21,560 nt of DNA. It comes from a virus. The stretch lies in the IMG/VR virus record IMGVR_UViG_3300020154_000019, positions 1 to 21,560 of that record. One strand, 5' to 3'. The position numbers and the translations under genes are program-made. Positions 9,704 to 19,938 of this stretch are shown here, one piece after another. The notes beneath the pieces are model-generated. The model was not told where the DNA came from and did no database searches. It saw only the letters and a list, made by a program, of their open reading frames with translations. Positions within the stretch are counted from its first letter, which is position 1. Each line of letters opens with the position of its first letter.

Positions 9704-12700
9704 TTACGGACTTATTTTTAATAATGAATCTGGTAATACCGGGTCAATTGCACTTGGATTCGGAACGTATTCTGAACCTTTCGTACCATTCCCGATTCTA
9801 TTTGAATTTGGAGAAGGTACTATTGTCGGTGATCCCGTTATATCTTGGGTAATTCTGTTCTGTGCGCCTAAGAAGGCCGATACAGTGGCGATCTCTGTTA
9901 CGATGGGTGCTGGATAGGCTAACATTCTAACCCCTTTAAAAGAGGTTTCCATTGTGTTTGGTCGTATCTCATGAGTTACCTCAATTATCATGTATGCACC
10001 AGAGAACATGGGTATACCTTCTAATTGGAAATATTGAGTTGGTTGAATCATTGCATCACCAAGCATTTTCACAGTACAGGTATAACTTCGACCCTCATAA
10101 ACATTGAACAAATTTTGAGCCTTCCCTACAGGAGCAGATTCACTCTGATCAGCCGCGATTTGAGATAAAATCACTAAACTTTCATTTGTGTCTTTGTGTT
10201 CAACAGTATCTAAGATTATATCTTTGAAATATGATTGATTTTGAGCACCGTAACGGACTCTGAACGCTCGTACTGCATTTACCCCTGAGTTGTTGTTATT
10301 GAAATCTACAGGTAAACTACTATTTTCGTCTAAGTTGAAACTATCGTCTTTATAATCACTGTTAGCATCATTCAATTGGCTTGAACTACCACCAACATAC
10401 ATACATACGAACATAGGTCTTTGAGTCGGCTCAAGATTATCTATAGTTTCAAATATTCTCTCCCATTCATCATCCTTGAATGCCATGAAATTTTGTAAGG
10501 GGAAGAATTCGAAATTGTTATGGGCCAGAAGTCGAGATATCATTGTGAATACGCTAATATCATAATCGTCAGCCGATTCGATAAGAGGTCTGAAATCTAT
10601 AATACATTTATCACTAATGTCGTTAAAGGCTCTATCAACAAACACAAAACTATCGAATAATGATCCACCAAAACGATTATTTAGGATATAACCGTCATCA
10701 GCAAACATTCCACCAGCAAGCCATTTGTCATAAATGGATTTAAATGAATAATAACATTGATTTTTAACATCATCATCGTTTAGTCTGGATTGTGACTTCG
10801 CTGCTGTCTCAACTCTATCGACTTCAACTCTAGTTAGATTGCTTTCAAGTTTTCTAAAGAAAGTGGAAAAAAATGTGTTATTAATCTGAGCATGATCAGC
10901 GTCAAGTGCATTTATTTGTGGTAGAGTTAAGAATGTCGTTTGATTATTATCTGTAAATGCATTTTCCCCGAAAACTATCAACCCCTTTTCCAACATCAGA
11001 GTGTTTTCAAATTGTGTTTCTCTAAACGATGCAGAATTAAATGCCAAATCATAACCCTTGTATTTATCGCTATTAATAACTTGCGCATAAGCACCGTCAA
11101 CAGTAGCATCTAAAGGTTGCTTACTGATATTCTCGTTAATGATAACTTTTAATGACGATATTAATCTATCGAAGTCTGATTGTATATCATCATCTCCAAC
11201 ACCATTTACAAAATTTAAAAATTGAGTAATTAAAACGGTTTTATCGGCTTCGGTTAGATTAGGAATCAGTTCATCTACAATGAAATCATGTTCATTACTT
11301 TTAGCGGGGTTCTCGCTGATGAATAAATAACGTAATTTTTCAGTGCCTTGCATAGCCTGACTAATTAAACCAGACTGATGTTTAAGGGTTAAATTAAAAA
11401 ATTCAGCGAATAATTGAGTTGCTTGATTTTCAGCATTGACATTACCGTTAGCGTAATGGTAGATATAACCACCTAAGTAAATCAATACAAACTGTGGTAA
11501 TTTTAAAGCCGAAGGGATTCCCCAAAAAACATTTTGGGCAATACTATTTTGTGTGTAATTACTAGCTATAAAAAATGCTTTGGCAAATTCATCATATACA
11601 CTATCAGGCTTATTTAATATCACATTTATAGGAGCATCAAACAACGTATATAAAACTCTATAACGTTCGAGCATTGAAGACGTAATATTATCAATTTCAT
11701 CTAAAGCAATAGGTTGTAAATAATTTGTTTTAAAATCATCACCTCTTTCAGCATCATTGTAAAAAATCACGTTGTCAGAAGTAAACTTTCTAGGCTTGTT
11801 TTTCTTATCAAAAATTTCAATATAACTTTTATTTGAATCTAAAAAAACATTGATTGGATCACTAGTGTCACCCACAGAAATTCGCTCCGTTAAAACGCTA
11901 CCATCAACAATTTTGATTGAATCATTATCAGCCACATCAGCGAATGCTTTATTTTTGTAGATATTTACCCCATTAATCGTGAGTTGATTAGGGTTGGATA
12001 GACCAATGTTTCTACGTGTCAATTCTTGATAAAATAAATTCGGGTCAGCAGCAAAACGTTTGGCTAGTTCTTTAATAGCATTTGTAGTCTTAGGATTGTC
12101 CAGAGAATTAGTGATGTTTAATACTTCAGCATCTAAAATTAGCTGACGAATTGTGTCGTAGTTAATACCTGCTTTATTGCTTCGTTTAAACAAACCAAAA
12201 AAAGTCTTCTGTTCATAGAATGAAGAAGCGAAAAAATATTGACTATAAGCAATAAAACGATCATGAAATATCTGAAAAAACTGATCAATACCCGGATCAT
12301 CTTTTAGACCAAAATATGGTGAATTTGTATTCACTTCATTACCTAAAAGAGAATCTATTGGACTCAACGGAATCCATTTCTTATTACCGCTTTCGTCCTC
12401 TTGTTGTCTTAAATCAATAATTTTTTCTTGTTGTTTTAGCGTGATAAACGCATTTACAAAATTCTCAACCATCCTAACTTCTGGAAACTCAGGGTTAATA
12501 GGTAGTCTTCCCGGATATGCCTTTGAGCGTTTTTTTGTGTTATTTTCAACTATTTCTTCAGTATAAACAGGAAAAGGATAAATCTTTTTAACGTCACTAT
12601 TTTTTAAAGTATGACTTAATGCGTCGAAAATTTTCGATTTATTGGCTTCATGATGGCCTTCAGCCTGCCTAGCCGTTTCTTTCAATACATCGAAAAATTT

Positions 12701-14209
12701 ATCCACATCATCACAGATGATTCTGAATATATTTCCTATGGTCGGTATGAATCCACTTTCATCTGAGCCGCTAACTTTCTGTTTAAATTGTTGTAATTGC
12801 GAATCTACCAATGCATCCACTTTATCCTTCAATTTAAGATTGATGTCATCGACTTGTTTAGTGTATGATCTCTGTTGAACAATTATTTTTTGTGTAAAAT
12901 CACTCACATCCATTCCGACGTATTTCTCGTTTTCAATTGTGAATATTCTGAAGTTTTCAGAAATATCTTCAGACCCAATAGTTGAATTTGAGTATTGATT
13001 AGCCTTGGAAATTAAAGCAGTCTTAATATTTCTTAACCTATCTTTAACATATGTTTCTAAAGAGACATCATTCCCCACCTTAAAAGATAATAAAAGTCTC
13101 ACGGACTTGTTGCGATTCATAATCGGAACGTTATCAGTTGATTTTGCGACTGATGATGTCTTTAAAACTTTATCATATTTGGCTATTTTGTTAGTTACGT
13201 TTTCAAATTGAACAGGGTCAGAGTTGGCAGGTGATGAATTGTTCGCATCTTCACTTTGAGCCTGAGTTACCGAAATTGACGAAGTTTTATTCTCCATGAA
13301 TACATAGCCCTTATTGACCAAAGAAGTATCAGCATCGCCTGCAGTAAGATTTAGAAACGTGTTCGGAAAGCCATCGAGATCAGTAAAGACCGATGTTAAC
13401 CCATCTGATTTATTTTTAAGTTTTTCTCTAGTTGATACGTCTGCAGACTTGTCATTTATCTCACCTATTTGTTCGTAAAGTTTTTTACTTTTTATAATGA
13501 AATCTCTAAGAGTATTCGTGGGAGTAGTCACGTCATTTGAGCCACTGGTTGTACCTGTAGATTGAAGTAAATACGGTGCTATTTCAGCATATTTAAACAA
13601 TACGTCTGTCAACGGAGCGTAAGTTCGTCCTACAAAACTGGCAGTAATTAGGAAATTGCCAGTGTTTCCTTCAAATCTGGTATTTTGCTTTACTAGATGG
13701 AGATCGTAGGTGATTTGACCTCCGTAAATTCCTTTAACCGTCAATTGAAATAATGGCGGTGGAAACGAGTGCAAAACAGAATATGGACTGTCTTTACCTG
13801 AATTGAATAATGACAAACCTCTCGTGTCTGTGAACTCAATTTCGACCTGTGGTATATAACTGCTATTAACTGTGATTCTGATACTAGTTATCCCAAAACC
13901 TTCGTACTGCGGTTCTGTATTTCCATCACTAGAAACACCTCCCCAACGACTAGTAAATCTCTGAGTTTCGGGGTTATATCCCAACATGCTAACGGTCAGA
14001 TTATCGAAAACTTTTTCAACATTTCCGTTACTAACAGTACCTCTTTTATTCAACACCGTACTTTCTCTTCTGCTTGCTAGAAGTTCAACGAAGATGAACA
14101 TTTTAGAATAATCTGGAACCCCATTTCTTCTGTTGTTATTTATTTCGTTGGGATCGATAACTCTAATACTCATAGTTCCCTGATAATCTGATTTAAAATA
14201 AATAGTCAT
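9704..14209 (-). CDS. Giant baseplate hub-like structural protein
   Basis: The protein has 1501 residues, the largest gene here. The N-terminal about 215 residues are beta-rich (TSIRITVNSSYIPQVEIEF, LFQLTVKGIYGG, FLITASFVGRTY) and look like a tail or hub domain. The middle is long, charged and unrecognised. The C-terminal part has strands typical of hub proteins of the gp27/late-control-D type: FRVRYGAQNQSYF, SYTCTVKMLGDAMIQP (ending near residue 1390), QYFQLEGIPMFSGAY and IIEVTHEIRPN followed by SFKGVRM. A Pro/Ser/Asn/Gly tail of about 50 residues ends it. The ATG at 14209 is chosen; a second Met lies at residue 13. It is followed after 5 nt by the peptidoglycan hydrolase, as expected for a hub that carries a muralytic enzyme. 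The hub label is inference from the C-terminal pattern and context; the tail role is likely, the exact position less so. Confidence 0.65.
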   Translation of the reverse strand: MTIYFKSDYQGTMSIRVIDPNEINNNRRNGVPDYSKMFIFVELLASRRESTVLNKRGTVSNGNVEKVFDNLTVSMLGYNPETQRFTSRWGGVSSDGNTEPQYEGFGITSIRITVNSSYIPQVEIEFTDTRGLSLFNSGKDSPYSVLHSFPPPLFQLTVKGIYGGQITYDLHLVKQNTRFEGNTGNFLITASFVGRTYAPLTDVLFKYAEIAPYLLQSTGTTSGSNDVTTPTNTLRDFIIKSKKLYEQIGEINDKSADVSTREKLKNKSDGLTSVFTDLDGFPNTFLNLTAGDADTSLVNKGYVFMENKTSSISVTQAQSEDANNSSPANSDPVQFENVTNKIAKYDKVLKTSSVAKSTDNVPIMNRNKSVRLLLSFKVGNDVSLETYVKDRLRNIKTALISKANQYSNSTIGSEDISENFRIFTIENEKYVGMDVSDFTQKIIVQQRSYTKQVDDINLKLKDKVDALVDSQLQQFKQKVSGSDESGFIPTIGNIFRIICDDVDKFFDVLKETARQAEGHHEANKSKIFDALSHTLKNSDVKKIYPFPVYTEEIVENNTKKRSKAYPGRLPINPEFPEVRMVENFVNAFITLKQQEKIIDLRQQEDESGNKKWIPLSPIDSLLGNEVNTNSPYFGLKDDPGIDQFFQIFHDRFIAYSQYFFASSFYEQKTFFGLFKRSNKAGINYDTIRQLILDAEVLNITNSLDNPKTTNAIKELAKRFAADPNLFYQELTRRNIGLSNPNQLTINGVNIYKNKAFADVADNDSIKIVDGSVLTERISVGDTSDPINVFLDSNKSYIEIFDKKNKPRKFTSDNVIFYNDAERGDDFKTNYLQPIALDEIDNITSSMLERYRVLYTLFDAPINVILNKPDSVYDEFAKAFFIASNYTQNSIAQNVFWGIPSALKLPQFVLIYLGGYIYHYANGNVNAENQATQLFAEFFNLTLKHQSGLISQAMQGTEKLRYLFISENPAKSNEHDFIVDELIPNLTEADKTVLITQFLNFVNGVGDDDIQSDFDRLISSLKVIINENISKQPLDATVDGAYAQVINSDKYKGYDLAFNSASFRETQFENTLMLEKGLIVFGENAFTDNNQTTFLTLPQINALDADHAQINNTFFSTFFRKLESNLTRVEVDRVETAAKSQSRLNDDDVKNQCYYSFKSIYDKWLAGGMFADDGYILNNRFGGSLFDSFVFVDRAFNDISDKCIIDFRPLIESADDYDISVFTMISRLLAHNNFEFFPLQNFMAFKDDEWERIFETIDNLEPTQRPMFVCMYVGGSSSQLNDANSDYKDDSFNLDENSSLPVDFNNNNSGVNAVRAFRVRYGAQNQSYFKDIILDTVEHKDTNESLVILSQIAADQSESAPVGKAQNLFNVYEGRSYTCTVKMLGDAMIQPTQYFQLEGIPMFSGAYMIIEVTHEIRPNTMETSFKGVRMLAYPAPIVTEIATVSAFLGAQNRITQDITGSPTIVPSPNSNRIGNGTKGSEYVPNPSAIDPVLPDSLLKISP

Positions 14210-14697: not shown

Positions 14698-15432
14698 ATG
14701 AGTAAAATATTAAGAAGGGGTGAAACTGGTTTTGGTATTCTTATAGAAGAAGATGCGGGTTATATCGCGTCACACGTAAGTGATTTCAATAAGAACTTGT
14801 TCGAAAACGTTTTGAACGAAAGTTTTACAACATCTTCTTTAAAAGGTGGTAAAATTTTGGTGGATTGTATTCTTCAAAAATACGGAGTTGAAAACCGTAA
14901 CGGAAGGATATATCCTCAAGAGGTATTGTACCCACAGGTTCAAAAATATATGGAATCTGTTAAGGATAATTCTGCAGTAAGTGAAGCCGATCATCCTGAA
15001 AGTTCAGTAGTGTCTTTGAAAAATATTTCACACATTATTAAAGATATGTGGTGGGGTCAGGGTGACAATGCTAATACTCTTTACGGTAAATTAGAAATCA
15101 TAACATCCCCTGCTTACATTAATCATGGTCAGGTATGTATGATTGGAGATAAAATAGTTGAATACCTTCGCAGAGGAATTAAGTTAGGTATTTCAAGTAG
15201 AGGGGTAGGGTCGCTTCAGGAAGTTAAAGGCAAAAACATCGTTCAGAAAGACTTTGAATTGATATGTTTTGACCTTGTTGCTTCTCCAAGTACGCCCGGA
15301 GCATACTTATTCCCCAAATTTAATGATGAAAACGGTGCTGATGCTGTTCAGGAAATGAACATCGTCACTCCAAAACCAATGCTGAAAGAACAGAAATTAA
15401 TTTCGGCATTAGACAATTTTTTAAATTCTTAA
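14698..15432 (+). CDS. gp21: Prohead core protease, T4 gp21-like serine peptidase
   Basis: The protein has 244 residues (T4 gp21 has 212). This enzyme matures the prohead: it cleaves scaffold and core proteins to peptides and trims the capsid protein, usually after (I/L/V)-x-Glu. The fold signature is clear: ENRNGRIYP (65-73), SEADHPE (95-101) with catalytic His99, LGISSRGVGS (163-172) with the nucleophile among Ser166/Ser167, and DFELICFDLVASPSTPGAYL (185-204) with Asp192 a likely third member. Residues 39-42 read LNES, itself a plausible self-cleavage site that would remove a 41-residue propeptide. The C-terminal tail after about 208 is not conserved-looking and may be removed on activation. 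The gene is followed by scaffold and capsid genes exactly as in T4. Identification is very secure. Confidence 0.95.
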   Translation: MSKILRRGETGFGILIEEDAGYIASHVSDFNKNLFENVLNESFTTSSLKGGKILVDCILQKYGVENRNGRIYPQEVLYPQVQKYMESVKDNSAVSEADHPESSVVSLKNISHIIKDMWWGQGDNANTLYGKLEIITSPAYINHGQVCMIGDKIVEYLRRGIKLGISSRGVGSLQEVKGKNIVQKDFELICFDLVASPSTPGAYLFPKFNDENGADAVQEMNIVTPKPMLKEQKLISALDNFLNS

Positions 15433-15531: not shown

Positions 15532-16992
15532 ATGTCTGAGGTAAAGAAAACAGTTATTGAAGAAGCACTTATCGAATACGATATGGTGTTAAAAGAAGCT
15601 CAAGAAATAGCTAAGGAAGAATTGGCTAATTCTATGCCAGACAAATTTGAAAATTTAGTAGAACAACATCTTAAAAATAAAAATAAGATAAACGAATCTG
15701 ACGAACAACAAGAGCCAACTATGGCAGATGAAAAAGAGTCGGTAGAAGAGTCCTTTCAGGACAACAATCAAGAGATGTCTGAACCCGCTAAAGTCGATAT
15801 GACCCAAGCATCAATTGACGAAATCGAAGAAGCCTATGATAATTTATCATTGGATGAAATTGAGATCGTAAGAGATGGTGAAGGTTATGACGATGATATT
15901 GAGGTGAAAGATATCGAGAAGGAAATTGATTCCATGAGCGAAATGGTCGATGAACTAGACGCGATGGATCAACCAGTAGTTGCTGAAGACAGCAATGATC
16001 CTTTTGGTAAACTTAAACAAATGCACGAAGAAATGTCTAAAATGTTAGAAGCAATCGAATCAGAAAAATCTGCACCAATTGCAGAAGGCGTAAAGGATGG
16101 TCACGTACTCGCTACCAAAGGCGGTAAACTTGCAAAAGCTGCACCTGTAAAACAGATCGCAGAAGATGAAGTAGCCGAAGGAGTGAAGGATGGTCACGTA
16201 CTTGCCAAGAAAGGCGGTAAACTCGCGAAGGCTGCACCTGTAAAACAGATCGCAGAAGACGAAGTTGCAGAAGGCGTAAAAGACGGTCATGTGCTTGCTA
16301 AAAAAGGTGGCAAACTTGCAAAAGCAGCCCCGGTTAAAGCAATCGCAGAAGACGAAGAAATCGTGAACGAGGAACAAGTTGAAGAAAGTCATGGACACGC
16401 ATTGTCTCATAACAAGCACACTGGCCAAGAATCACAGCCAAGCATAGATGGTGCGAAAAGCTATGCTAAAGACAAAGTTAGACTTGCACTTCAGAAAGAA
16501 TCTGAGGACAAAGCTAAAAAGATTTCTGCTCTCTTGAAGGAACAAAGGGAACTTACCAAGAAGCTAAACTCAATGAAGAAAGAAAAATCTGATTTGGTTG
16601 GCATCAACGAAGGTTTCAAAAAGACCCTCAATGAGATGAAGGATCAAATGAAAAAAATGGCTGTATTCAACACGAACATTGCCCATGTAAACAACCTGTT
16701 GGTAAATGAAGAACTCGTTTTGACAAAAGACGAAAAAATTTACATCATCAACAAGTTTAAAAATGTGGCAAGCATCACTGAATCTGATACAACTCACAAA
16801 ACGCTTTTAGAAGAGTTTAAAACATCAAAGAAAAAACTTGATGAATCTATCGAAAAGAAAATAACTGAGTCAGTTGGTGGTGGATCATCTGCTAATATTC
16901 TTGAATCAAAAATCGTCGAAAAAACTGCTTTCGAAAAAAGCATCGACAAAATGAAGAATATTATAAACTACACTGAAAGACAGCGTAGATAA
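15532..16992 (+). CDS. gp22: Prohead scaffold protein, T4 gp22-like, with internal peptide repeats
   Basis: The protein has 486 residues; T4 gp22 has 269. The scaffold forms the core around which the capsid shell assembles and is then cut to peptides by the gp21-type protease. It sits between protease and capsid genes, the T4 position. Residues 1-180 are helical and strongly acidic. Residues 183-275 are three 31-residue repeats with a lysine-rich centre. Residues about 305-370 and 420-486 are charged coiled-coil-like sequence, as expected for scaffolds. Protease-type sites are abundant: INE-S (53-55), IAE at 183-185, 209-211, 240-242 and 271-273, VAE at 214-216 and 245-247, and near the C-terminus ITE-S and ILE-S. 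The extra length over T4 comes partly from the repeat block. The scaffold call rests on gene order and composition more than on residue identity. Confidence 0.85.
   Translation: MSEVKKTVIEEALIEYDMVLKEAQEIAKEELANSMPDKFENLVEQHLKNKNKINESDEQQEPTMADEKESVEESFQDNNQEMSEPAKVDMTQASIDEIEEAYDNLSLDEIEIVRDGEGYDDDIEVKDIEKEIDSMSEMVDELDAMDQPVVAEDSNDPFGKLKQMHEEMSKMLEAIESEKSAPIAEGVKDGHVLATKGGKLAKAAPVKQIAEDEVAEGVKDGHVLAKKGGKLAKAAPVKQIAEDEVAEGVKDGHVLAKKGGKLAKAAPVKAIAEDEEIVNEEQVEESHGHALSHNKHTGQESQPSIDGAKSYAKDKVRLALQKESEDKAKKISALLKEQRELTKKLNSMKKEKSDLVGINEGFKKTLNEMKDQMKKMAVFNTNIAHVNNLLVNEELVLTKDEKIYIINKFKNVASITESDTTHKTLLEEFKTSKKKLDESIEKKITESVGGGSSANILESKIVEKTAFEKSIDKMKNIINYTERQRR
16078..16356 (+). repeat. Three tandem 93-bp in-frame repeats in the scaffold gene
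   Basis: Units run 16078-16170, 16171-16263 and 16264-16356. Each encodes (I/V)AEGVKDGHVLA, then (T/K)KGGKLAKAAPVK, then (Q/A)IAEDE. Only about four residues differ among the copies, while many third codon positions differ. That pattern suggests the protein sequence is being kept by selection rather than by a very recent duplication. Confidence 0.95.
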
Positions 16993-17024: not shown

Positions 17025-18680
17025 ATGGGTTTTTTAATGGAAAGTGGCGATGTAGGTAACATCGGCTTAAAACAACTAAGAGATACACGTCAAGTAGTAA
17101 CTCAACGTTGGGAAAAAATTGGTCTTCTTGAAGGTCTTGAAGGCAACGTGAAAGAAAACTGCGCTCAATTATATGAGAATCAGTTATCACACATGATCAA
17201 CGAATCTACGGATTCTGCATCAAATGGTTCATTCGAAACTGTAGCATTCCCTGTAATCAGAAGAGTGTTCTCGAAATTGCTTGCTAACGATCTAGTATCT
17301 GTTCAGGCTCTTAACTTACCTATCGGTAAATTGTTCTTCATTAACCCGAAGATTTCTACCCGTAGAGCAAATAACCGTCATTCATCACCAGATGGTGCAT
17401 ATAGCAACGCTGCTACTTTAGCTGCTTCTGCTCGTACTCAATTTGAGTCTAAGAACCTTTACGATTCTTATTATGCAACTTCATACGGTGACGAAGGTAC
17501 TTCGCTTTTCGACCGTTCAAAAGGTGCTTCAACTGTAGTTACTGGTACTTGTACCGTATCTCCTGCATATGCATCTGGCGATAAAGTTGTAAGCGCAACT
17601 GTAGCTGGTTTCACTACTACCTCACAAGGTAAACTTGTTGGCCCTGCAGGTGTTCCTATGGACACTGAATCATTCCTTCAGTCATTGAAGATTTATTCAA
17701 ACAGAACCTTCGCAACTGTAGCTCCTTACACCTCTGAGAACATCGCAGCAGGTAGCCCGATCCCTTACAACATTAAGACTCAAACCTACGGTAGAGCAGT
17801 TGTAAACACTTCAGGCCAGTTAGTGTTGAACATTGACTTAACTTATCCGGGTGCAAATGGTTATGGTTCTGCTTTAACAGCAGCAACTCCTACCTTCTTC
17901 TTCGAATACAGAACTTATTCTGATTTGGAAGAAGATTCAGAAATGGCTGAAGTAACTTTCGGTCTTGATGAAGTAACCGTGTCTGTTGAAACTCGTAAAA
18001 TGAGAGCACAGTGGACTCCTGAACTTGCGCAAGACGTAAGTGCATTCCATAACATTGACGCAGAATCTGAATTAACAGCATTGTTGTCAGAAACTATGGC
18101 TGCTGAAATCGACCGTGAAATCCTTCGTGATTTGCGTAGAGGTGCAGCTTGGGTGAAGCGTTGGGACTATAACGGTCTTCGTAAACAATCTACTACGTAC
18201 TACGGTACTCAGAAGGATTGGAACCAAACTTTGATCACTACAATCAACCAGATTAGTGCTCAAATCCATAAGTCAACCCTTCGTGGTGGTGCTTCATGGT
18301 TGGTTGTATCACCTGAAATCTCTGCCGTGTTTGATGACTTGGAATACTTCCACGTATCTAATGCATCTCCTGAGCAAGATAAGTATAACATGGGTATCGA
18401 AAAAATCGGTAGCCTTAGCGGAAGATATCAAGTGTTCCGTGACCCTTATGCACCTGCCAACACTTTGTTGATTGGTCACAGAGGTTCATCAATCCTTGAG
18501 TCAGGTTACATCTACGCACCTTACGTGCCGATGCAATTAACTCCGGTTATGTACAACCCGTTCGACTTCAAGCCGATCCGTGGTATCATGACTCGTTATG
18601 CTAAGAAAATGGTATTGAACAGATACTTCGGTAGAGTTCTTTGCGATGGTCTTACATATTTCTCTGACCCGCTTCAGTAG
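17025..18680 (+). CDS. gp23: Major capsid protein, T4 gp23-like
   Basis: The protein has 551 residues (T4 gp23 has 521). It is the HK97-fold shell protein. Recognisable blocks are the capsid N-arm region FPVIRRVFSKLLANDLVSVQ (about 75-94), and the most diagnostic stretch, about residues 308-365: FGLDEVTVSVETRKMRAQWT, then ELAQDVSAFHNIDAESELT, then AAEIDREILRDLRR, which parallels the matching T4 segment closely. Residues 58-60 are INE followed by Ser61, at nearly the spot where T4 gp23 is cut (after residue 65), so the mature protein probably starts at Ser61. A Thr/Ser/Gly-rich segment at about 160-270 is more variable and likely corresponds to a surface insertion. The gene lies 32 bp after scaffold in an A-rich leader with no own promoter-like element, and ends before a strong terminator. 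Identification is very secure. Confidence 0.97.
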   Translation: MGFLMESGDVGNIGLKQLRDTRQVVTQRWEKIGLLEGLEGNVKENCAQLYENQLSHMINESTDSASNGSFETVAFPVIRRVFSKLLANDLVSVQALNLPIGKLFFINPKISTRRANNRHSSPDGAYSNAATLAASARTQFESKNLYDSYYATSYGDEGTSLFDRSKGASTVVTGTCTVSPAYASGDKVVSATVAGFTTTSQGKLVGPAGVPMDTESFLQSLKIYSNRTFATVAPYTSENIAAGSPIPYNIKTQTYGRAVVNTSGQLVLNIDLTYPGANGYGSALTAATPTFFFEYRTYSDLEEDSEMAEVTFGLDEVTVSVETRKMRAQWTPELAQDVSAFHNIDAESELTALLSETMAAEIDREILRDLRRGAAWVKRWDYNGLRKQSTTYYGTQKDWNQTLITTINQISAQIHKSTLRGGASWLVVSPEISAVFDDLEYFHVSNASPEQDKYNMGIEKIGSLSGRYQVFRDPYAPANTLLIGHRGSSILESGYIYAPYVPMQLTPVMYNPFDFKPIRGIMTRYAKKMVLNRYFGRVLCDGLTYFSDPLQ

Positions 18681-19299: not shown

Positions 19300-19938
19300 T
19301 TGCGGCAATTTTTTATATATCAAATTCAAAACACAATCAACGGCAAAATTTATATAGGAAGCACCGTTGGTTACAAAAGAAGATTCAGAGATCATAAGAG
19401 AGAACTAAATAAGAACATTCATCACAATATAAAACTCCAACGGGCTTGGAATAAATATGGTGGTGAATGTTTTTCTTTTTCAATTATAGAAGAAAATCTT
19501 GGAACGAAAGTGTTTCAGGTTGAAAGGGAAAATTATTATCTACAAAAACATAAACCATTTCTTGACGAAATTGGGTATAATATTTTAAATGAAGCGTTTA
19601 TTTCTGCCTCTACAATTTATAGTGATGAAATAAAAAAGGCAGCATCTGAAAGAATGAAGGGTTCAAAAAATCCAATGTTTGGTAAATATGGGTCTTTGAA
19701 TGGTAAATTTGGTAAACCACTTTCTCTTGAAACAAGAAGAAAACAATCAATAAGTAGAAGAAAAAAATTTATTGGTGAAAAAGCGGGAAACGTTAAACTA
19801 ACCGAACAACAAGTTCTTGAAATTAGGGCCAAATACATTCCACGGGTTTATTCAAGCACTAAACTTGCTCAAGAATACGACGTTTCTCAAGGTATGATTA
19901 TGTCAATAGTTAAAAGACGTAATTGGACTCATATTTGA
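19300..19938 (+). CDS. GIY-YIG homing endonuclease with NUMOD3 and helix-turn-helix, Seg-like
   Basis: The protein has 212 residues. Residues 5-90 are a GIY-YIG nuclease domain: FIY at 5-7 in place of GIY, YIG at 18-20, an Arg-rich helix (RRFRDHKREL, 27-36), the family block LQRAWNKYGGECFSFSIIE (46-64), and a likely catalytic Glu75 in VERENYY. Residues about 124-140 (NPMFGKYGSLNGKFGKP) are two NUMOD3 DNA-binding motifs, and 165-212 form a helix-turn-helix (STKLAQEYDVSQGMIMSIVKR). Such genes cut related phage genomes lacking the insertion and spread by recombination. The start is a TTG at 19300, chosen because no ATG precedes the domain and the tail tube stop is just upstream. No promoter-like element is present; expression would depend on tail tube mRNA. 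Its 3' end overlaps a convergent gene by 10 bp. Free-standing, since the neighbouring gene is intact. Confidence 0.9.
   Translation: MRQFFIYQIQNTINGKIYIGSTVGYKRRFRDHKRELNKNIHHNIKLQRAWNKYGGECFSFSIIEENLGTKVFQVERENYYLQKHKPFLDEIGYNILNEAFISASTIYSDEIKKAASERMKGSKNPMFGKYGSLNGKFGKPLSLETRRKQSISRRKKFIGEKAGNVKLTEQQVLEIRAKYIPRVYSSTKLAQEYDVSQGMIMSIVKRRNWTHI

Follow-up and report, generated by a model that had tools for sequence, protein, structure and literature searches.

The window (the whole stretch of DNA analyzed, 21,560 nucleotides) is a 21.6-kb virus contig with T4-type head genes, coding for a terminase, a gp20 portal, a gp21 protease, a protein in the scaffold position, gp23, and a gp19-like tail tube protein, in the order gp20-gp21-scaffold-gp23 for the core of the block (Table 1). 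The gene between the gp21 protease and gp23 codes for a mostly helical and coiled-coil protein with many (I/L/V)-x-E sites, as for a gp22-type core scaffold. It has no relevant gp22 family match in Pfam or PHROG, and as scaffolds diverge fast, this absence is weak evidence. The adjoining protease matches both a head maturation protease family (PHROG 207) and the T4 gp21 structure (PDB 5jbl), and its His in ADHPESS and Ser in GISSRGVGS align with the His and Ser of T4 gp21; wild-type T4 gp21 carries both residues, and the solved 5jbl chain shows Ala in place of each. A cognate gp21-type protease with its active-site residues retained is thus encoded. The predicted gp23 maturation site, (I/L/V/M)-N-E followed by S/A/T, is kept in all of the relatives aligned. 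It offers an independent reading of the protease's specificity, and agrees with the T4 motif L/I-x-E as given in PMC9026906.

Table 1. Features of the head gene block and of the scaffold repeats (window coordinates)
Feature	Position	Strand	Basis or properties
gp21-type prohead protease, 244 aa, presumed cutter	14698..15432	+	Pfam Peptidase_S77 E 1e-23; PHROG 207 E 3e-41; PDB 5jbl E 3e-16
Core scaffold gene, gp22 position, 486 aa	15532..16992	+	Gene order; 75 related contigs have a homologue here; alignment
Three tandem 31-residue units, scaffold residues 183-275	16078..16356	+	Repeat finding, self-match
In-frame unit 1, IAEGVKDGHVLATKGGKLAKAAPVKQIAEDE	16078-16170	+	Frame of ORF 15532-16992
In-frame unit 2, VAEGVKDGHVLAKKGGKLAKAAPVKQIAEDE	16171-16263	+	Frame of ORF 15532-16992
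In-frame unit 3, VAEGVKDGHVLAKKGGKLAKAAPVKAIAEDE	16264-16356	+	Frame of ORF 15532-16992
Predicted released peptide 1, GVKDGHVLATKGGKLAKAAPVKQIAE	16087..16164	+	Monoisotopic 2585.50, net +3; phi-x-E both sides
Acidic spacer DEVAE	16165..16179	+	Between two cut sites
Predicted released peptide 2, GVKDGHVLAKKGGKLAKAAPVKQIAE	16180..16257	+	Monoisotopic 2612.55, net +4
Acidic spacer DEVAE	16258..16272	+	Between two cut sites
Predicted released peptide 3, GVKDGHVLAKKGGKLAKAAPVKAIAE	16273..16350	+	Monoisotopic 2555.53, net +4
Acidic spacer DEEIVNE	16351..16371	+	After third peptide
gp23-type major capsid protein	17025..18680	+	Pfam Gp23 E 4.5e-71
Predicted gp23 maturation site INE (residues 58-60) before Ser61	17196..17204	+	(I/L/V/M)-N-E kept in all aligned relatives

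The scaffold gene carries three 93-nt direct repeats, as predicted originally and confirmed by TRF (16081-16357, period 93, 3.0 copies, score 377), and the protein matches itself with a best score of 293, versus 43 in shuffles. Each unit follows the formula (I/V)AE-GVKDGHVLA(T/K)KGGKLAKAAPVK(Q/A)IAE-DE; the QIAE ending first ascribed to all three copies holds for two, the third reading AIAE. Cutting after (I/V)AE is predicted to yield three 26-residue peptides, with 23% Lys and a net charge of +3 or +4 each, together with acidic DEVAE spacers. The whole scaffold has a net charge of -32, and the uncut repeat block (residues 183-275) alone is +2. The protein appears to have a helical N-terminus, a disordered middle, and a long C-terminal coiled coil, with helices at residues 2-54, 125-144, 157-179, 305-391, and 399-485 in an AlphaFold2 model of low overall confidence (mean pLDDT 57, from a shallow alignment). 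Residues 180-307, between helices, have a pLDDT of about 30, which suggests that the repeat stretch is disordered and would therefore be accessible.

The scaffold is rich in the protease motif. Over residues 46-325, the part before the coiled coil, there are 19 phi-x-E ([ILVM]xE) sites versus 9.2 expected (0 of 3,000 shuffles), and removal of all repeats leaves 13 versus 7.0 (p about 0.006); the control motifs phi-x-D, phi-x-K, phi-E, and phi-xxE occur about as often as expected. The same pattern extends to 52 non-redundant relatives' scaffolds, which have 722 sites versus 429 expected (1.7-fold, z 17), with observed/expected ratios of 1.16 for phi-x-D, 1.03 for phi-x-K, 0.91 for phi-E, and 1.06 for phi-xxE. 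The excess is thus scaffold-wide and extends beyond the repeated cassettes. T4 gp22 is similar (21 sites versus 11 expected), as are other T4-like core proteins, and since the motif is also short and common, the sites alone are no proof of cargo. The proposal that gp21-type sites bound the units is supported by the adjoining gp21 homologue and the capsid site kept in the aligned relatives. Because the stretch is predicted to be accessible and is bounded by the protease motif, we regard cutting into the predicted peptides during prohead maturation as very likely.

The three copies differ mostly silently. NG86 values of pS are 0.47 (copies 1 and 2), 0.90 (2 and 3), and 0.60 (1 and 3), and the corresponding values of pN are 0.035, 0.028, and 0.064 (pN/pS about 0.03-0.11), showing purifying selection between copies. 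Silent sites of copies 2 and 3 are near saturation with the peptide preserved; selection against exact DNA repeats, which are prone to recombinational loss, could account for such codon scrambling. The window's peptide was not found outside the window in IMG/VR or GenBank phages, and the repeat gave chance matches only against PDB sequences.

A capsid-protein search of IMG/VR returned 76 loci, from 75 of which the ORF upstream of gp23 was taken. The relatives' capsid proteins are strongly conserved, at about 75% identity. In silico digestion of their scaffolds shows that about half of the non-redundant relatives have pairs of similar fragments running from cut site to cut site, and that the paired fragments are of mutually unrelated peptide types, yet occupy the same scaffold slot. 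We distinguish type A (QKNNGGQGANKVNPGGPTTAMIDE, mean net charge +0.2), type B (MHQGNFPLDKMHQGNYDSKLIDE, also in a long form; -2.8), type C, near the N-terminus (TAGEGKPFDEKAKKVEKVEE; +0.3), type D, which is the window's own, and a hydrophobic type of 61-67 residues in three lineages. Types A and B recur recognizably over many phages, and passengers of 23-34 residues with short spacers are a recurring format. No passenger type matched a Pfam family above the cut-off.

The flanking sites persist while the passengers change. Among 54 A and B cassettes, phi-x-E forms the upstream triplet in 52 and the terminal triplet in all 54, against a background of 5% per position; in the upstream triplet P2 varies (D, E, G, N, A, S, Q, Y) and P1 is always E. 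Cassettes of one type share ancestry, and these counts should not be read as separate events. Relatives that lose the sites and keep the repeat, which would have spoken against a cleavage role, were looked for, and the reverse was seen, with sites retained around differing peptides. Many relatives in the tree set are without a repeated cassette of the recognized types, so the family does not depend on one. Two relatives of the window's capsid gene sit in Bacteroidota MAG contigs, so the hosts of this phage group are probably Bacteroidota.

Two kinds of larger passenger were also observed. The hydrophobic type (L004, residues 210-270; L011, 238-304; L045, 264-326; also L043 and L066) starts with DP or SP, followed by a hydrophobic stretch and an Ala-rich tail with Lys, and has phi-x-E on both sides; the scaffolds carrying it differ in their remaining sequence, and it is possibly membrane active. 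Duplicated domains of about 100 residues are present in L052 (scaffold residues 148-366), with a similar pair in L018 (about 250-460), and these had no match in Pfam.

Cassette composition turns over rapidly, changing at least 23 times across 51 rows of the capsid-protein tree. Strongly supported sisters differ, with L003 carrying AA and L024 BB in the same slot, and L013 carrying bb and L074 bB. The scaffolds of the latter two capsid-protein sisters are nearly identical, apart from one cassette swapped exactly between the cuts after IEE and LIDE and one 20-residue cassette inserted cut-to-cut; one of the N-terminal type C cassettes of L074 is degenerate. Overall, 16 of 70 distinct indels run cut-to-cut, compared with 3.3 +/- 1.7 under random placement (0 of 2,000 trials reach 16), or 4.8 times chance. 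It is thus often the released fragment that is exchanged, though most indels in this test are not resolved as cut-to-cut.

Selection on the peptide, as proposed originally, is borne out within phages. For 17 copy pairs in the relatives, pooled pS is 0.333 and pN 0.047, the silent differences again showing constraint, and copies are DNA-identical in some relatives (L024, L041, and L076). Between phages, pN/pS is 0.51 for passengers (with unlike types mixed), versus 0.38 for the linker and 0.23 for the coiled coil, so that passengers are under weaker constraint than the scaffold around them. This counts against a universally conserved peptide function, and it fits filler or host-specific cargo alike. 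For copies of equal silent divergence, similarity is just modestly higher within a phage than between phages.

A similar arrangement is present in an isolated phage, Flavobacterium phage vB_FspM_immuto (MW353176), whose capsid protein is 32% identical to that of the window. Its scaffold, in the same gene position, has two copies of GFEQWLDSVSAQMDKFGKNNPTIQAIEKAV(S/Q)AAQ(D/E)KAKKAGITGHGMTKGHK(VF/IS)E in the layout /GFEQ...KVFE/ESENLEE/GFEQ...KISE/ESEELAE/ (slashes mark predicted cuts). A phi-x-E closes each passenger, including the first, which ends in VFE, and the ESENLEE spacer lies between them. The shared features are thus gene position, tandem Lys-rich passengers, phi-x-E bounds, and acidic spacers, whereas the immuto passenger is longer (55 residues, net +2) and unrelated in sequence, and the genome, at 160 kb, falls short of the long contigs found among the window's relatives. 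The first immuto passenger (GFEQ...KVFE), with an N-terminal Gly and a C-terminal Glu, has a predicted monoisotopic mass of 5929.00. The immuto copies differ in 3 of 52 codons, and by this measure the duplication is recent. We note that the gene (MW353176.1, 125582-126823; L079:3692-4933) is annotated as a "DNA polymerase phi-like protein," probably a compositional mis-annotation, its position and layout being those of a core scaffold. No site-bounded peptide duplicates were found in the scaffolds of T4, Mel-JY01, SCTP-2, Phosso, phiKT1024, CPX, LR756508, and LR756511, several of which have acidic or coiled-coil periodicity.

We put at about even the prospect that the scaffold is a multi-copy, exchangeable peptide precursor, with freed peptides that act in the head or in the host. 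The scaffold would use its N-terminal helices and its C-terminal coiled coil to assemble into a prohead core, leaving the disordered repeats exposed, and the gp21 homologue would cut after the (I/V)AE flanking each unit. The spacers would hold the uncut stretch nearly neutral, and cutting would part the basic peptides from them. We take it as most likely that at least some of the free peptides would then act as peptides inside the head, either staying with the DNA or passing into the host, by comparison with the retained fragment of T4 gp22. Other phages would fill this slot with different peptides to suit their own needs. Retention or ejection, and any activity of the free peptides, are suggested by analogy and are much less certain than cutting.

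The T4 head provides the closest comparison. PMC9026906 gives 576 copies of gp22 in the prohead and 115 copies of a 2.5-kDa fragment in the mature head, together with 139 copies of a 3.9-kDa fragment of gp67 that remain in the head; the window's 2.6-kDa peptides are within the size range of these retained fragments. T4 gp22 resembles the window's scaffold in its position between gp21 and gp23, its helical character, its richness in (I/L)-x-E, and, as that source describes, its digestion by the protease to leave small head peptides. It has, by contrast, no tandem units (its best self-match is 39, and shuffles reach 61), and no family match in Pfam or PHROG connects the two proteins. The T4 internal proteins IPI, IPII, and IPIII are, like the window's passengers, variable and poorly conserved core contents, and are freed by the gp21-type protease (PMC9026906), but each has a gene of its own and an N-terminal targeting peptide that ends at a cut site, whereas the window's units lie in tandem in the middle of the scaffold ORF. 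In the IPIII targeting sequence, processing is inhibited by an aspartate at position 10 (PMC9026906), which we take to be P1. phiKZ gp175 and SPN3US gp245 are also gp21-type proteases that cut after Glu in a short motif and process multi-site propeptides; the phiKZ motif is S/A-x-E, and the propeptides are mostly N-terminal, on head and ejection proteins. Tandem peptide cassettes in the head proteins of these two phages are not described in the available portions of PMC9026906 and PMC10052503. Digestion of T4-type core proteins leaving peptides is thus known, and the multi-copy, exchangeable precursor form looks new; our literature search, with most subscription papers outside its reach, turned up no account of tandem cassettes of this sort in a T4-like scaffold. 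Cells make multi-copy peptide precursors, such as that of yeast alpha-factor, in which peptide copies lie between protease sites with short spacers; this is an analogy only, the proteins and proteases being unrelated to those of the window.

A possible, if doubtful, alternative to a peptide precursor is that the cassettes are degradable filler, setting the length or volume of the core, with sites that let the protease chop the stretch for exit before DNA entry and peptides that are otherwise idle. T4 core peptides mostly exit the head (PMC9026906, PMC9958956), and the scaffold-wide motif enrichment, the poor conservation of passengers between phages, and the fast turnover of cassette sets are all as this explanation would have it. 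Filler needs no particular sequence, however, yet in a single phage the copies retain the peptide as their silent sites drift apart, and for this reason we favor a peptide role over mere filler. Types A and B also recur across many phages, and the recurrence of passengers of 23-34 residues with short spacers is not what random chopping would give.

It is unlikely that each unit is instead a binding site in the uncut core, contacting the capsid protein, portal, protease, or other core proteins, with copies raising avidity and the sites releasing the contact at maturation. One to three tandem copies in a stretch predicted to be disordered and accessible would suit such a module, as would the near-neutral uncut block and the confinement of passengers to the scaffold gene in the relatives' contigs that matched (three of six). 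But a partner such as the capsid protein is highly conserved, and the peptides bear no relation to one another; even sister phages whose capsid proteins are closely related carry different ones.

Very improbable is the suggestion, made in the original prediction, that Lys-rich peptides condense DNA in the packed head, as counter-ions or DNA-binding tails. The Lys content and charge of the window's peptides and the Lys-rich immuto passenger are in its favor, but the means for types A, B, and C show mostly neutral or acidic peptides in the relatives, and the window's own was found nowhere else, so this is not supported as a general role. The charge is also small, with about 6,000 charges estimated to match 1-2% of DNA phosphates (assuming a T4-like number of 576 scaffolds and a roughly 250-kb genome). 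Condensation in the window's phage alone is possible but weak. Neutral replication slippage is the least probable explanation and is already disfavored: linkers in disordered proteins gain repeats easily and some relatives have DNA-identical copies, but silent change between copies strongly exceeds replacement change, and this and the site-to-site indel boundaries argue against it.

The role of small internal peptides in T4-type heads has long been unclear, and discrete, repeated, exchangeable units make the question testable, with respect to staying in the head, ejection, and the effect of a swap; immuto, with the same layout, offers an experimental phage. Extending the peptide-precursor reading, we suggest tentatively, and as something short of likely, that in Bacteroidota-associated T4-like phages the scaffold is a general loading slot, through which any peptide or small domain would enter every prohead at fixed copy number. 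Passengers flanked by phi-x-E, whether Lys-rich, Gly/Asn-rich, His/Met-rich, hydrophobic, or domains of about 100 residues, would be freed, delivered with the DNA, and swapped like anti-host effectors. Should passengers indeed be delivered, this slot would give large phages a peptide-loading route not described before.

Three other genes of the window deserve mention. A 1,501-aa protein is encoded on the minus strand (9704-14209) within the head gene block, in the opposite orientation, and has no match in Pfam. A 623-aa protein (570-2441) with long Asp/Ala/Gly and Glu/Gly tandem repeats, for which a family search gave no match, has several INE/LNE sites close to both ends and may be another core or head protein. 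Immediately after the gp19-like gene there is a GIY-YIG/NUMOD3 homing endonuclease gene (19300-19938), a placement resembling that of the seg genes near the T4 head genes.
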